This document shows positions 33,670 to 38,079 of a stretch of 46,997 nucleotides of DNA, one piece after another. How positions within the stretch are numbered: the first letter of the stretch is position 1; each line of letters opens with the position of its first letter. The position numbers and the translations under genes are program-made. Under the pieces are notes generated by a model, which did no database searches, had not been told where the DNA came from, and worked only from the letters and a program-made list of their open reading frames with translations. The stretch comes from Acidobacteriaceae bacterium (lineage in GTDB: Bacteria; Acidobacteriota; Terriglobia; Terriglobales; Acidobacteriaceae): contig JASHNS010000052.1 in NCBI GenBank assembly GCA_030041515.1, forward strand, positions 1 to 46,997, in the 5' to 3' direction.

Positions 33670-34179
33670 ATGGCATCGACCGAAACGCGCAGGATGGTGC
33701 AGGCCGCCGCCGCGGCCTGCGAAGACAAGAAAGGCGAGGACACGCGGGTTCTGGAACTGGACCCGGCGGACTCCGCCTTCACCGATTTCTTTCTGATCAC
33801 CAGCGCCACGAACGAGCGGCAGTCGCAGGCCATCGCCGATGAAGTGGAGCTGCGGCTGAAGCGAGAGTTCGGGGTGTATCCGAATTCCGTGGAGGGTCGG
33901 CGAGTCGGCGAGTGGGTGCTGCTGGATTACGTGGATTTTGTCGTGCACATCTTTCTGCACGAGCGGCGCACGTTCTACGACATCGAGCGGCTGCGCAAGT
34001 CGGCGCGGCCGGTGGCCGTGTCAGAACTGACGGAGACGCTGAAGAGGAAGACACTGGCGGCGCGGAAGAAGGCTCCGGCGACAAAGGGAGCGAAGGTGGC
34101 GACCAAGGCGAAAGCTCTCCCAAAGAAGGCCTCAGCTAAGCGCTCAGTAAAGCCAACGAAGCCCAAAGTCAAACGCTAA
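33670..34179 (+). CDS. rsfS: Ribosomal silencing factor RsfS with a basic tail
   Basis: The 169-residue protein begins with a normal RsfS domain (residues about 1-118): EDTRVLELDPADSAFTDFFLITSATNERQSQAIADEV, GRRVGEWVLLDYVDFVVHIFLHERRTFYDIERL. RsfS binds ribosomal protein uL14 and blocks subunit joining under nutrient limitation. The last 45 or so residues are an Ala/Lys tail (KKAPATKGAKVATKAKALP and onward) absent from typical members, which are about 105-130 residues. The tail stays in the same frame with the local codon style, so it is probably real rather than a frameshift. Confidence 0.9.
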   Translation: MASTETRRMVQAAAAACEDKKGEDTRVLELDPADSAFTDFFLITSATNERQSQAIADEVELRLKREFGVYPNSVEGRRVGEWVLLDYVDFVVHIFLHERRTFYDIERLRKSARPVAVSELTETLKRKTLAARKKAPATKGAKVATKAKALPKKASAKRSVKPTKPKVKR

Positions 34180-34241
34180 GCGCCATGCGGTGGCCGAATT
34201 GGTACGTGCTTTCCACAGGGGTGAACAAAAATCGAATCTAT

Positions 34242-34287
34242 CGCTGGGAATTTCTGCTAGCATCCGTGCTAGCAGTTTTTCCCAGCG
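34242..34287 (+). promoter_or_regulatory. 46-bp perfect dyad, candidate operator of the restriction-modification operon
   Basis: The outer arms CGCTGGGAA (34242-34250) and TTCCCAGCG (34279-34287) and the inner arms CTGCTAGCA (34254-34262) and TGCTAGCAG (34267-34275) are both perfect inverted repeats on one centre between 34264 and 34265. TTT lies between arms on each side and TCCG in the middle. TGCTAGCA is itself a palindrome, so it also forms a 12-base direct repeat. The dyad ends 7 bases before the ATG at 34295, with the GAGG ribosome binding site at 34287-34290 touching the right arm. Confidence 0.8.
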
Positions 34288-34294
34288 AGGTTGA

Positions 34295-35515
34295 ATGTCG
34301 AGTCAGTTAAATATCAGGAACGTGCCGCCGGATGTGCGTCACTGGATTCGACGCGAGACCGAGCGGACTCAACAAAAGCAGAACGAATTCCTCATCGGCA
34401 CTCTGCGTCAAGCTGCGCAGCTGAGCTATACACCAGCGCTGCCCTTCGATTCTCCCCAAATCCGCCCATCCCCACGCGACCATCGGCTCCCGTTCTCATT
34501 TATTGATCTCTTTGCGGGTATTGGCGGGTTCCGTATTGCCCTAGAGGAAAACGGCGGAAGTTGTGTTTTCACGTCTGAATGGGATCGCTACTCGCAGCGA
34601 ACCTACCACAAGTGGTTTGGAGAATTGCCGCGTGGTGACATAACCAAAATCCATCCCAGCGAAATCCCTGATCATGACATTCTGGCTGCGGGATTTCCCT
34701 GCCAGCCATTCTCGATTGCGGGAGTGTCCAAGAAGAACAGTCTGGGTAGGCTTCACGGTTTCGACTGTGTGACGCAAGGAAATCTGTTTTTCAATATCGC
34801 CACGATCGCGCAAATAAAGAGACCCCCCGTTCTTCTGCTAGAGAATGTGAAGAACCTCAAATCACACGACCAGGGTCGCACTTGGAAAACAATCTATGCG
34901 ACATTGGACGGTCTGGGCTATTGGATATTCGCCGAGATTATCGATGCTGCTGGGTGGGTTCCTCAGCACCGCGAACGCGTTTACATCGTGTGCTTCGACA
35001 AGCAAGTGTTCCGCACGCGACCTGCGTTTCAATTCCCCGCGTCGCCCACAAACGGTCCCGCGCTTCAAGACATACTTGAGTCCAATCCGGATCCAAAGTA
35101 CACGCTAACGGATCACTTATGGAAATACCTGCAGGAGTACGCTGAAAGGCACAAAGAAAAGGGCAATGGTTTTGGGTTCGGCTTGGCTGATCTGCGTGGC
35201 GTCACACGCACACTGAGTGCTCGCTATTACAAGGATGGTTCAGAGATACTCATCCCTCAGCCAAGAAAGACTCCCCGTCGCCTCACTCCGCGCGAGTGTC
35301 AGCGGTTGATGGGATTTCCGGATGACCCGGATCGATACCCCATCGTCGTATCGGACACGCAGGCCTACAGACAGTTCGGAAATGCTGTTGTTCCCAAGGT
35401 GGCCGCAGAAGTAGTGCGCTCTATCCTGGTTGTCCTCCGCAGCGAGTGGGAGAGACGAAATAAGGGCTGCCTGCTGAAGTGCGCAATTCCTGAATTGGAG
35501 CAGGCCGCAGTGTAA
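34295..35515 (+). CDS. EcoRII/Dcm-type cytosine-C5 methyltransferase with N-terminal ribbon-helix-helix domain
   Basis: The 406-residue enzyme has two parts. Residues 1-45 (SSQLNIRNVPPDVRHWIRRE, then KQNEFLIGTLRQAAQ) read as a beta-strand plus two helices like FitA/Arc antitoxins. Residues 67-390 are a C5 methyltransferase: FSFIDLFAGIGGFRIAL (SAM site), GFPCQPFSIAG with nucleophile Cys136, ENVKNLKSHD with Glu183, QHRERVYIV, then RRLTPRECQRLMGFP and RQFGNAVVP. The block HGFDCVTQGNLFF and the ENVKNLKSHDQG run place it in the M.EcoRII/Dcm group, which methylates the inner C of CCWGG. The start ATG has GAGG upstream. The stop overlaps the endonuclease start (TAATG). Its codon use looks less GC-biased than flanking genes, suggesting acquisition. 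Confidence 0.93.
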   Translation: MSSQLNIRNVPPDVRHWIRRETERTQQKQNEFLIGTLRQAAQLSYTPALPFDSPQIRPSPRDHRLPFSFIDLFAGIGGFRIALEENGGSCVFTSEWDRYSQRTYHKWFGELPRGDITKIHPSEIPDHDILAAGFPCQPFSIAGVSKKNSLGRLHGFDCVTQGNLFFNIATIAQIKRPPVLLLENVKNLKSHDQGRTWKTIYATLDGLGYWIFAEIIDAAGWVPQHRERVYIVCFDKQVFRTRPAFQFPASPTNGPALQDILESNPDPKYTLTDHLWKYLQEYAERHKEKGNGFGFGLADLRGVTRTLSARYYKDGSEILIPQPRKTPRRLTPRECQRLMGFPDDPDRYPIVVSDTQAYRQFGNAVVPKVAAEVVRSILVVLRSEWERRNKGCLLKCAIPELEQAAV

Positions 35516-36693
35516 TGATCTCGGCCAACTGCGAAGCGGCCATCGCCGCAGCTCAGGCCAGCGGCAATGCTCTCCTCAAGTTCATATCGCCTAACGACGT
35601 GGGCATAACGGGTTCCCATCAGTGTGGCTTCTATCTCCCAAAAGAGGATGGCGTCTGGCAGCTCTTCTCGTCACAGCCTCCAAGCAAGGGTCAATTCGCA
35701 AAGCAGCTCGTCACGATCCACTGGGGGATAGAAGACTACCAAACTCAATCTGCGATCACCTGGTATGGGCAGAAGACCCGCAATGAATATCGGTTGACGA
35801 GGTTTGGCCGAAACTTCCCTTATCTCACGCGTGACTCAGTCGGGGATCTGCTGGTCTTAATACCGACGGTGGAGGGCTCCTTTCGGGCGTTCTTGCTCGA
35901 TCTTGAGGAAGATTTCGACGAAATTCAGGCTGCGCTCGGAACGCGATTTGCCCGACATTGGGCGATTTACAGCAATGGTGCGCCGAGAGAAGAGACCGAG
36001 GAGGAGTGCATTGAGCGGAAATTCCGTCGGTTTACTGAGGGATTGACTTCATTCCCTGCGGGGGAAACTTTCTCAAGCATCGCGCGACAGGCTGCCACGG
36101 ATTGCATTCGAGAGTTTGCGGAGTACGACCTCGATGGAGCTCTGCTGAGGCTGGTGGATTGCGAGTACCGACTGTTCCGCATGGTCGAGCGGGCTCTATG
36201 CAACGCCGAAGTTGTGCGGCTGTTCTCAGATATCGACGACTTCCTGCGGACCGCTGCAACGATAATGAATCGACGGAAGTCTAGGGCGGGCCGATCTCTG
36301 GAGAATCATGTGGCCGCATTGCTGACCATGAGCGGCGTTCCACACACGATCCGCCCAGCAGAGATCGACGGCAGGCCTGACATTGTCATCCCCAGCGAAG
36401 CCGCCTACTTTGACGAGATTTGGCCGAAAGAGCGACTTTTTATTGTGGGTGTCAAGACGACTTGCAAGGACCGCTGGCGCCAGGTCCTTAACGAGGGCCG
36501 GCGCATCGAGCGAAAATACATCCTCACCATGCAGCCTGGAATATCGGAAGATCAGCTTCGGGAGATGCGCAACGCCCGTGTTTCCCTGGTGGTCCCTCAG
36601 CCACTTCACTCACACTACCCCATCTCCAGTGGTATTGAGATTCTGAGTCTCAAAGAATTCGTCTGTCGCGTTAAGGATGCGCTCGGAATATGA
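35515..36693 (+). CDS. EcoRII-family type II restriction endonuclease
   Basis: The 392-residue protein aligns by eye with EcoRII over both domains. The N-terminal B3-like effector domain (residues about 15-120) has LLKFISPNDVGITGSHQCGFY and TRNEYRLTRFGRNFP. The C-terminal PD-(D/E)xK domain has NRRKSRAGRSLENHV, RPDIVIPSEAAYFD and VGVKTTCKDRWRQVLNEGRR. Asp289, Lys314 and Lys318 have the same spacing that I recall for the EcoRII catalytic residues (25 and 29). EcoRII cuts before CCWGG and needs a second effector site (type IIE), and this is inferred here. The start overlaps the methyltransferase stop by one base and the stop overlaps vsr by four, so the three are translationally coupled. Confidence 0.93.
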   Translation: MISANCEAAIAAAQASGNALLKFISPNDVGITGSHQCGFYLPKEDGVWQLFSSQPPSKGQFAKQLVTIHWGIEDYQTQSAITWYGQKTRNEYRLTRFGRNFPYLTRDSVGDLLVLIPTVEGSFRAFLLDLEEDFDEIQAALGTRFARHWAIYSNGAPREETEEECIERKFRRFTEGLTSFPAGETFSSIARQAATDCIREFAEYDLDGALLRLVDCEYRLFRMVERALCNAEVVRLFSDIDDFLRTAATIMNRRKSRAGRSLENHVAALLTMSGVPHTIRPAEIDGRPDIVIPSEAAYFDEIWPKERLFIVGVKTTCKDRWRQVLNEGRRIERKYILTMQPGISEDQLREMRNARVSLVVPQPLHSHYPISSGIEILSLKEFVCRVKDALGI

Positions 36694-37133
36694 CCGACGT
36701 GCATACCCGCGAACAGCGCTCTCGGAACATGGCGGCGATACGATCGGCCAATACCAGGCCGGAGGTGCGGGTTCGGTCGGCGCTGCACAAGCTTGGGTTT
36801 CGGTTCCGGCTGCATCGCAAAGACCTGCCGGGACGGCCGGATATCGTGCTGCCGAAGTACCGGACTGTTCTGTTTGTGCACGGATGTTTCTGGCACTGTC
36901 ATCGTTGCAAATATGGATCGGTGATTCCGGCGACGCGGGCGGAATTCTGGGCGGCCAAGCGTGGCGGGAATGTCGAGCGGGACCGGAGAAATGCCGCGGC
37001 GCTGCGGAAGCAGGGCTGGCGGGTGCTGGTGCTGTGGGAGTGCGAGGTGCGGACGGAAGAGGCGGCGCTGGCGCGGATCGAGAGATTTCAAATTGGAGCA
37101 CCGCGGCCGGGGCGCAGGAGCGCGCAGGGCTAA
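36690..37133 (+). CDS. vsr: Very short patch repair (Vsr) endonuclease
   Basis: The 147-residue Vsr nicks 5' of the T in T:G mismatches made when 5-methylcytosine deaminates at CCWGG-type sites. The family core is unmistakable: SANTRPEVRVRSALHKLGFRF, PGRPDIVLPKYRTVLFVHGC with the catalytic Asp in PDIV, FWHCHRCK, ATRAEFWAAKRGGNVERDRR and GWRVLVLWECEV. The four zinc ligands known from E. coli Vsr (Cys, His, Cys, Cys) are all present. The ATG overlaps the endonuclease TGA (ATGA). Its GC-rich codon use differs from the two genes before it. It completes a methylate-cut-repair operon. Confidence 0.95.
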   Translation: MTDVHTREQRSRNMAAIRSANTRPEVRVRSALHKLGFRFRLHRKDLPGRPDIVLPKYRTVLFVHGCFWHCHRCKYGSVIPATRAEFWAAKRGGNVERDRRNAAALRKQGWRVLVLWECEVRTEEAALARIERFQIGAPRPGRRSAQG

Positions 37134-37170
37134 AGCGACTGCTGCAAAACACGGTTTACCATCATTATGA

Positions 37171-38079
37171 ATGTCCGACTTTTCTCAAACCTCTTCTCTG
37201 GCTGACCTTTCCACTGAGGCGCGGAATCCGGCGTCGGAACATCTGGATGAGCTTTCTGCCCTGGACGTGCTGGAGGTGATCCACGCCGCGGATCGTGAGG
37301 CCGTGGCGGCGGTGGACAGCGAACTGCCTCGCATCGCAGCAGCCGTTGAAGCGATCGCCGCGCGATTGTCTGGAGGCGGCCGCCTGTTTTATATCGGAGC
37401 GGGAACCTCGGGACGGCTGGGAGTGCTGGATGCGTCGGAATGTCCACCCACGTACAACGTGCCGCCGGACCTGGTTCAGGGCGTGATCGCGGGCGGAGAC
37501 GTGGCGCTGCGCCGCTCGACGGAGCGCGCGGAAGACGATACGGTGCAGGGTGGGTGCGATCTGGAGGCTCGCGGATTTTCCGCGCGGGACGCGCTGGTGG
37601 GCATCGCGGCCAGCGGGCGCACGCCGTATGTGCTGGGCGCGCTCGAGTATGCGCGGCAACTGGGCGCGCTGACGATTGGCCTCGCGTGCGTTCCGGGGTC
37701 GCCCGTCGCGACAGCGGCGGAGATGGCGGTCACGCCGGACACGGGACCCGAGGTGGTGACGGGGTCTACGCGCATGAAAGCGGGCACGGCGACGAAGCTG
37801 GTGCTGAATATGATCTCGACCGGAGTCTTTGTTCGGCTGGGCTACGTGTACGGGAATCTGATGGTGAACGCGCAGCCGACCAACTCCAAGCTTGCGGACC
37901 GAGCAGCGCGGATTGTTGCGACCATTACGGGGCTCACGGCGAGCGAAGCGCAGGAGCTTCTGGCGCAGGCAGGCTCCGTGAAGACTGCCGTAGTGATGCA
38001 TCGGCTGGGCGTGAGCCGCGAGGAGGCGGATCAGCGGCTGGCTGCGGTTCGCGGACGGCTGCGGAATGCGCTGCAATAA
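37171..38079 (+). CDS. murQ: N-acetylmuramic acid 6-phosphate etherase
   Basis: This 302-residue MurQ has the normal length. It cleaves the lactyl ether of MurNAc-6-phosphate to give GlcNAc-6-phosphate and D-lactate in cell-wall recycling. Its SIS domain begins with GGRLFYIGAGTSGRLGVLDASECPPTY. The catalytic GGDVALRRSTERAEDD block (Glu) and ASGRTPYVLGAL follow. VVTGSTRMKAGTATKLVLNMIST and YGNLMVNAQPTNSKLADRA are further signatures. The ATG lies 37 bases after vsr. The ROK kinase at 13.9 kb could serve the same pathway, but this is only a guess. Confidence 0.95.
   Translation: MSDFSQTSSLADLSTEARNPASEHLDELSALDVLEVIHAADREAVAAVDSELPRIAAAVEAIAARLSGGGRLFYIGAGTSGRLGVLDASECPPTYNVPPDLVQGVIAGGDVALRRSTERAEDDTVQGGCDLEARGFSARDALVGIAASGRTPYVLGALEYARQLGALTIGLACVPGSPVATAAEMAVTPDTGPEVVTGSTRMKAGTATKLVLNMISTGVFVRLGYVYGNLMVNAQPTNSKLADRAARIVATITGLTASEAQELLAQAGSVKTAVVMHRLGVSREEADQRLAAVRGRLRNALQ

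Follow-up and report, generated by a model that had tools for sequence, protein, structure and literature searches.

The R-M Operon and Its Methyltransferase

An old question about R-M operons is how the new host comes to be protected before its DNA is cut, and it is posed in concrete form by a large dyad standing directly in front of the methyltransferase gene of such an operon in the window (the whole stretch of DNA analyzed, 46,997 nucleotides): what binds this dyad, and with what effect on the genes behind it? The operon comprises genes for a C5-cytosine methyltransferase, an endonuclease and a Vsr protein, whose ends overlap (Table 1). Matches to PF00145 (4.1e-81) and TIGR00675 (5e-87) place a C5-cytosine methyltransferase domain in the first product, and the EcoRII-N and EcoRII-C domains of the second mark the operon, by homology, as an EcoRII-type R-M system. 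CCWGG is the target presumed, from the same homology, to be both methylated and cut. Among related loci an EcoRII-type restriction endonuclease gene adjoins that of the RHH-bearing methyltransferase in 11 of 12 tested. The R-M-Vsr cassette (window 33670-37171) lies between rsfS and a gene for N-acetylmuramic acid 6-phosphate etherase, as if inserted.

Table 1. Features of the R-M operon and of the dyad preceding it, in window coordinates.
Feature	Position	Strand	Basis or remark
rsfS, upstream neighbor, outside the R-M system	33670..34179	+	
Whole dyad: two inverted units CTGGGA-N5-TGMTAKCA, 4 nt between octamers	34241..34288	.	
Left outer arm CTGGGA (here GCTGGGA, near-match to CCWGG); proposed methyltransferase-domain contact	34244..34249	+	arm also found beside HTH operators
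Left octamer TGCTAGCA, proposed RHH dimer site	34255..34262	+	conservation; FitA-like antitoxin octamers
Proposed extended -10 TGCTAGCAT (TGn-TAGCAT), overlapping left octamer	34255..34263	+	inferred
Right octamer TGCTAGCA, proposed second RHH dimer site	34267..34274	-	
Right outer arm TCCCAG	34280..34285	-	
Shine-Dalgarno-like GCGAGG	34285..34290	+	read from sequence
C5-cytosine methyltransferase (dcm/EcoRII group) with N-terminal RHH-like domain	34295..35515	+	
N-terminal RHH-like domain of methyltransferase	about residues 1-45, 34295-34429	+	
EcoRII-type restriction endonuclease	35515..36693	+	EcoRII-N 2.7e-17, EcoRII-C 1.3e-52
Vsr mismatch endonuclease	36690..37133	+	

The first ~45 residues of the window methyltransferase are unmatched by Pfam, its RHH models giving no match in the window protein at E 1. 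HTH families gave none either, in contrast to the HTH matches in the related loci L203, L204 and L098, and the N-terminal helix-turn-helix of SsoII/EcoRII-type autorepressing methyltransferases was accordingly not found. PF22513 (FitA-like_RHH) matches 3 of 14 homologs (best E 0.0039), and a profile built on the N-termini of the 14 finds the antitoxin chain 7e4j (1.9e-5). Because the family model finds no match in the window protein, the N-terminus of this protein is described here as resembling the FitA type rather than as a member of PF22513. Structure models place helices at residues 12-25 and 29-42 after a short N-terminal stretch, the N-terminal strand not being formed in the monomer model. 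A Foldseek search with the N-terminal model returned mostly RHH proteins, none significant (best E 3.2); TacA1, Arc, AtaR, Rv0300 and others are the matches that we take to be of this fold. The RHH domain that the earlier note had read into this N-terminus is supported at the level of sequence as a FitA-type resemblance, by the PF22513 matches in homologs and the 7e4j profile match. A different RHH N-terminus, NikA-like (VHFRVDDDVYQQL), is carried by two other EcoRII-group methyltransferases, L202 (1426-1580; PF21983, 0.0013) and L085 (719 onward; judged by eye).

The Dyad and its Chance Level

The dyad, TCGCTGGGAATTTCTGCTAGCA-TCCG-TGCTAGCAGTTTTTCCCAGCGA, has 22-nt arms, paired at 19 of 22 positions, around a 4-nt centre. 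Its outer arms TCGCTGGGAA/TTCCCAGCGA (10 bp) and inner arms CTGCTAGCA/TGCTAGCAG (9 bp) are perfect, share the same centre and are separated by three mismatched positions. The two nested perfect inverted repeats about one centre reported in the earlier note are therefore real features of the sequence, each side of the dyad extending one base further than claimed, and so are the paired 8-bp palindromes, the TGCTAGCA octamers, which stand 12 bases apart start to start with 4 nt between them. The right arm does, as had been said, touch the ribosome binding site, reaching the Shine-Dalgarno-like GCGAGG that ends 4 nt before the ATG at 34295. The octamer TGCTAGCA occurs in the window in these two copies only, with 0.33 expected and two reached in 4 of 100 shuffles; the dyad score of 14 is the best in the 47-kb window, the best of 20 first-order random windows being 13. 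Plain dyad strength is only just above chance, and the dyad is taken as real because its two-unit pattern is conserved, not for its strength.

Conservation of the Two-Unit Element

Homologs of the methyltransferase were collected from relatives, genome contigs and viral contigs, and from plasmids (the last without the RHH domain; searching plasmids with just the N-terminus gave no match). From 157 loci, 4 whose reading frame is open at the 5' end were removed, along with 23 duplicates, recognized by identity over the last 300 residues; this left 130, namely 20 with the RHH-like domain and 110 others, the latter divided into 44 close (at least 45% identity) and 66 remote relatives. The profile used for this division was derived from RHH loci of the same set, 14 in number, and its scores over the 157 frames split cleanly (at least 41 bits versus at most 0.4). 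Two inverted CTGGGA-N5-TGMTAKCA units lie upstream of all 20 distinct RHH-methyltransferase loci, with one unit intact in L033, and the element is absent in all 110 relatives lacking the domain; the conservation in homologous loci by which the earlier note proposed to judge the dyad is thus found precisely where the domain occurs. Out of 28 positions, mismatches number 0 in 10 RHH loci, 1 in 4, 2 in 4 and 3 in 1, with 6 in L033, where only the right unit is intact; the 110 others have 7-13 and shuffles 8-13. The motif was read from 12 of the 20 loci, and seven outside these 12, obtained from protein searches (L048, L049, L084, L164, L165, L171, L172), have 0-3 mismatches.

The operator pattern was also used as a query. 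In 2.9 million viral contigs it occurs at four places, two of them directly upstream of RHH-methyltransferases; the other two lack the right arm and are followed by no reading frame of at least 40 aa starting within the next 200 nt. One of these two RHH-methyltransferase loci, L045, is absent among the matches listed by the two protein scans, of which the second listed up to 80 loci. Of 396 genomes making up a phylum sample, a single one, that of the window, has the two-unit pattern, a figure that measures background and not spread, since the sample omits the carriers G002, G006, G008, G032 and G094. Contigs bearing the RHH-methyltransferase system are labeled Acidobacteriaceae, Planctomycetota, Phycisphaerales, Anaerolineales and Thermoanaerobaculia, in addition to the viral ones. 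At 70% protein identity the 20 RHH loci reduce to 10 clusters, as do 26 HTH loci considered below, and the locus counts are therefore not counts of independent events.

Across the RHH loci the distance between the octamers ranges from 0 to 11 nt and that from arm to octamer is fixed at 5 nt, so that the conserved object is the CTGGGA-N5-octamer unit. Of the proposal of two adjacent RHH half-sites, the conserved octamers stand, but their 12-base spacing is not kept across the loci.

Octamers Shared With FitA-Like Antitoxins

TGMTAKCA-like octamers also occur before free FitA-like antitoxin genes of relatives, single, paired or arrayed at 9-bp steps. Of 30 FitA-like antitoxin loci, the first 20 include 14 with two or more octamers in the 90 nt upstream, counted with up to one mismatch (the other 6 lacking two), and the 10 weaker ones include none; the control level is 0.18% of 5502 segments. 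One such antitoxin, L053, matches the PDB Trafficking protein A chains 2h1o and 2bsq (E 0.007), both presumably FitA. The window operator carries octamers of the TGMTAKCA type found beside PF22513 antitoxins, and given this recurrence before free FitA-like antitoxin genes, it is very probable that the RHH-like domain binds at the octamer, in keeping with the TGCTA-like half-sites that the earlier note gave for FitA-type operators. CTGGGA itself was considered as a further RHH half-site and rejected: it is absent at 5 nt from the octamer upstream of all 30 FitA-like antitoxin loci.

Two further patterns were seen before antitoxin genes. Up to six TGMTAKCA-like octamers stand at 9-bp steps before those of L053-L066 (L053, for example). 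Several MVQIRNVP-type antitoxins among L074-L082 lack octamer pairs and have, by eye, CATGTG/CACATG-like repeats instead, which suggests a second operator class.

Overlap With the Probable Promoter

The two octamers are not equivalent. The base next after the left octamer is T in 19 of the 20 RHH loci; next after the right one, read on the other strand, it is T in 3 of 20 (Fisher 4e-7). On the left this T yields TGnTAKCAT, an extended -10. The left octamer thus probably doubles as an extended -10, and transcription would be expected to start about within the right octamer. The -35 match varies, being 6/6 in L084 at 18 nt and poor in the window, and a consensus promoter scan, which requires a -35, found no promoter at the window dyad. 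CTGGGA as a -35 was ruled out, since its first base lies 14 nt upstream of the -10 hexamer. To judge from its letters, then, the site is a palindromic operator overlapping the predicted promoter of the gene it precedes, as expected if bound protein blocked transcription, one of two mechanisms proposed earlier. Because the left octamer probably doubles as the -10, the dyad is read as an autorepressor operator, and it is very likely that the methyltransferase represses its own R-M operon through it.

The other proposed mechanism, an RNA hairpin over the ribosome binding site that controls translation of the methyltransferase, is weakened as the main one and now appears highly improbable. RNA of 34200-34320 does fold into the full hairpin (z -3.6), with its right arm abutting the Shine-Dalgarno sequence, but with the left octamer resembling a -10, mRNA made from the operon's promoter would begin within the dyad and be without the left arm. 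Moreover, when octamer spacing changes it is the arm-to-octamer distance that stays, and the outer arms recur with unrelated inner cores (see below). Read-through RNA from rsfS could still fold into the hairpin.

The same strong fold has been weighed as an intrinsic terminator of rsfS, an unlikely reading in which the inner 9-bp stem, a UCCG loop and a U5 tract lie 75 nt downstream of the rsfS stop. A terminator scan flags this very stem (one found, 1.3 expected from shuffles), and stem-loop and U tract are both present in the window, but they are not kept together in relatives: the T run is not conserved, 3 of 20 loci having TTTT in the 5-nt spacer that follows the right octamer, and the distance between octamers varies. 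A terminator would also leave the CTGGGA arms and the tie to the RHH-like domain unexplained. Terminator activity may be a secondary effect at the window dyad.

HTH loci such as L092 and L184 show, by eye, TTGACA- or CTGGACA-like sequences just outside the left arm and a CATAAT-like one in the core, suggesting a promoter layout like that of the RHH type.

Outer Arms Common to RHH and HTH Operators

The flanks of the RHH set are most conserved at distances 6-11, which is CTGGGA. CTGG, the last four letters of CCWGG, is present in 35 of 40 arms (17/20 left, 18/20 right); a preceding C, which completes a true CCTGG, is found in 4/20 arms on the left and 0/20 on the right. Because CTGG is so frequent and true CCTGG rare, the methyltransferase domain is proposed to recognize the arm as a near-match to CCWGG. 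The four true CCTGG left arms (L170, L035, L171, L172) could themselves be methylated.

HTH relatives of the same methyltransferase group have unrelated cores and the same outer arms, here 8 nt from the core. A search with the core alone (GGAC-N4..6-GTCC) found 11 places, nine in the same methyltransferase group and two in remote methyltransferases; GGGA stands 8 nt left of the core in 9/9 of the former versus 0/2 of the latter. In 18 HTH loci with two kinds of core, G occupies distances 10/11/12 in 17/18/18 loci on the left and 18/17/14 on the right, although this set was partly chosen after the arms had been noticed, and the core-only search and the plasmid loci provide fairer counts. For the latter, 12 loci were hand-picked from 100 matches listed, before their upstream regions were read, and 10 of them were scored together with the earlier-seen L098. 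Eight belong to the CCWGG group and have a 13-bp core, with GGG on the left in seven and on the right in six; the EcoRII-type endonuclease was checked for L205, L206, L208, L210, L212 and L213, and taken from annotation for L207 and L214. One of these, L210 (HTH, EcoRII-type endonuclease), lacks GGG arms on both sides. In the three scored loci of other specificity 1 of 6 arms has GGG: none in the SsoII-like L203 and the LlaJI-type L098, and one of two in L204, beside a LlaMI-family gene. L209 and L211, with 11-bp cores and outside the scored set, both show by eye a right ACCCAG, with AAGGAA and GCGGGA, respectively, on the left. The operator of L194, one of the 18 HTH loci, whose N-terminus we take to be that of M.EcoRII, reads CTGGGT-N8-TGATACAGTTTCA-N8-ACCCAA.

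The arms are, on these sequences, not universal in the CCWGG group. The two loci with a NikA-like RHH N-terminus, L202 and L085, which have an EcoRII-type endonuclease, show no CTGGGA or GGG arms; no recognizable core or arms were found in the RHH-less CCWGG-group loci L037, L038 and L102 or in the solo enzymes L197 and L198. Arms are also missing, by eye, from the SpyI-like L192, which is not assigned to that group. Nor is the arm idea general to all such enzymes, since the SsoII-like L203 is without arms. A core-free scan for CTGGGW/WCCCAG pairs (0-1 mismatch) matched 6 of 29 RHH-less loci that carry an N-terminal extension and 0 of 16 that lack one, 1 of 66 remote loci and 2.6% of shuffles of the N-terminal-extension group, but was given no weight, some of the six matches (L179, L191) lying off-core.

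Because the arms recur beside helix-turn-helix operators of the same methyltransferase group, they do not look like extra RHH half-sites. If the dyad is an autorepressor operator, a contact between its arms and the methyltransferase domain appears reasonably likely. It is a doubtful but non-exclusive variant of the same operator that the DNA-binding part, or some other factor, recognizes the arms. In favor of this variant, the published SsoII work, in the passages bearing on the point, puts specific contacts in the core only. Yet the same arms stand beside RHH octamers and two kinds of HTH core, are missing beside free FitA-like antitoxins, and hold their distance to the octamer rather than to promoter or ribosome binding site.

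A Model for Autorepression

From domain architecture, operator conservation, promoter asymmetry and arms common to unrelated DNA-binding domains, all established by comparing loci, we infer binding, repression and an outer contact made by the methyltransferase domain. RHH dimers would occupy both TGCTAGCA octamers, of which the left one probably overlaps the -10, and the methyltransferase domains joined to these dimers would reach outward onto the CTGGGA/TCCCAG arms, which are like the presumed target CCWGG without being identical to it. The bound RHH-methyltransferase would exclude RNA polymerase, turning down M, R and Vsr together. With few enzyme copies, as when the system has newly entered a cell, the promoter would be open and methyltransferase made; as the methyltransferase accumulated, the promoter would close. 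The earlier note had thus anticipated the RHH-like domain, the octamers, their conservation and the promoter site, while its other suggestion, the hairpin, is weakened as the main mechanism; it had missed the variable octamer spacing and the recurrence of the outer arms beside helix-turn-helix operators.

A bolder idea, offered tentatively, is that the outer arms act as decoys for the site that the enzyme methylates, that the genome has to be methylated before repression begins, and that an HTH core has been swapped for an RHH one. Before it could clamp the arms, the methyltransferase domain would have to be released from genomic CCWGG sites, so that free enzyme would be split between unmethylated genomic sites and the operator, and unfinished methylation would be measured by substrate titration. 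The module would be portable, a helix-turn-helix core having been exchanged for one of toxin-antitoxin type, with the arms kept.

Relation to Known Systems

Autorepression by M.SsoII-type methyltransferases is described in passages of two publications (PMC3978073, PMC3695355), which provide the nearest parallel: in M.SsoII and M.Ecl18kI, as proposed here, a C5-methyltransferase with an N-terminal DNA-binding domain represses its own gene through a promoter palindrome. These enzymes differ in having an HTH rather than an RHH domain, the target CCNGG, the core GGACAAATTGTCC and a divergent R gene, and the SsoII-like locus L203, unlike the window operator, lacks CTGGG arms. The N-terminal domains of M.SsoII are described as sitting on the core and its methyltransferase domains on flanking DNA (PMC3978073, PMC3695355, PMC6100179), in passages that call the flanking contacts non-specific and give footprints of 48 and 52 nt (PMC6100179). 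The arms described here stand where M.SsoII-like methyltransferase domains would be expected on flanking DNA. M.EcoRII shares the CCWGG group and represses its own gene, according to work cited in PMC3978073; it differs in the lack of an RHH-like N-terminus, a convergent R gene and a different inner core.

FitA, of FitAB, resembles the window system in its RHH domain and its TGCTATCA-like octamers. Its operator we take to be TGCTATCA-N12-TGATAGCA. FitA-FitB is described as assembling on 36-bp DNA (PMC3920265). Compared with FitA, the window RHH-like domain is fused to a methyltransferase rather than toxin-binding, and CTGGGA arms are added. The C proteins of R-M systems likewise exert feedback control on an R-M operon (PMC3874152, in the passage concerned), but as separate HTH proteins, none of which was noticed beside the window operon.

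Where two reviews treat R-M autoregulation by a fused DNA-binding domain, that domain is a helix-turn-helix (PMC3874152, PMC12707154), and no description of an RHH-fused methyltransferase was found among the titles and abstract openings of the papers listed. Autoregulation by a fused DNA-binding domain is already known, and the RHH version and the common outer arms are new as far as those titles and openings extend. An antitoxin-type DNA-binding domain has apparently taken over R-M control. If the proposed contact is real, arms in the CCWGG group, including those of an M.EcoRII-like promoter, would mean that both domains of the enzyme take part in reading its promoter, and would open a direct route to asking whether the feedback senses unmethylated sites. 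In the viral contig L050 (about 2100-2420), separate RHH-like frames, recognized by eye, lie just upstream of a methyltransferase gene without the fused domain, possibly an unfused version of the same arrangement.
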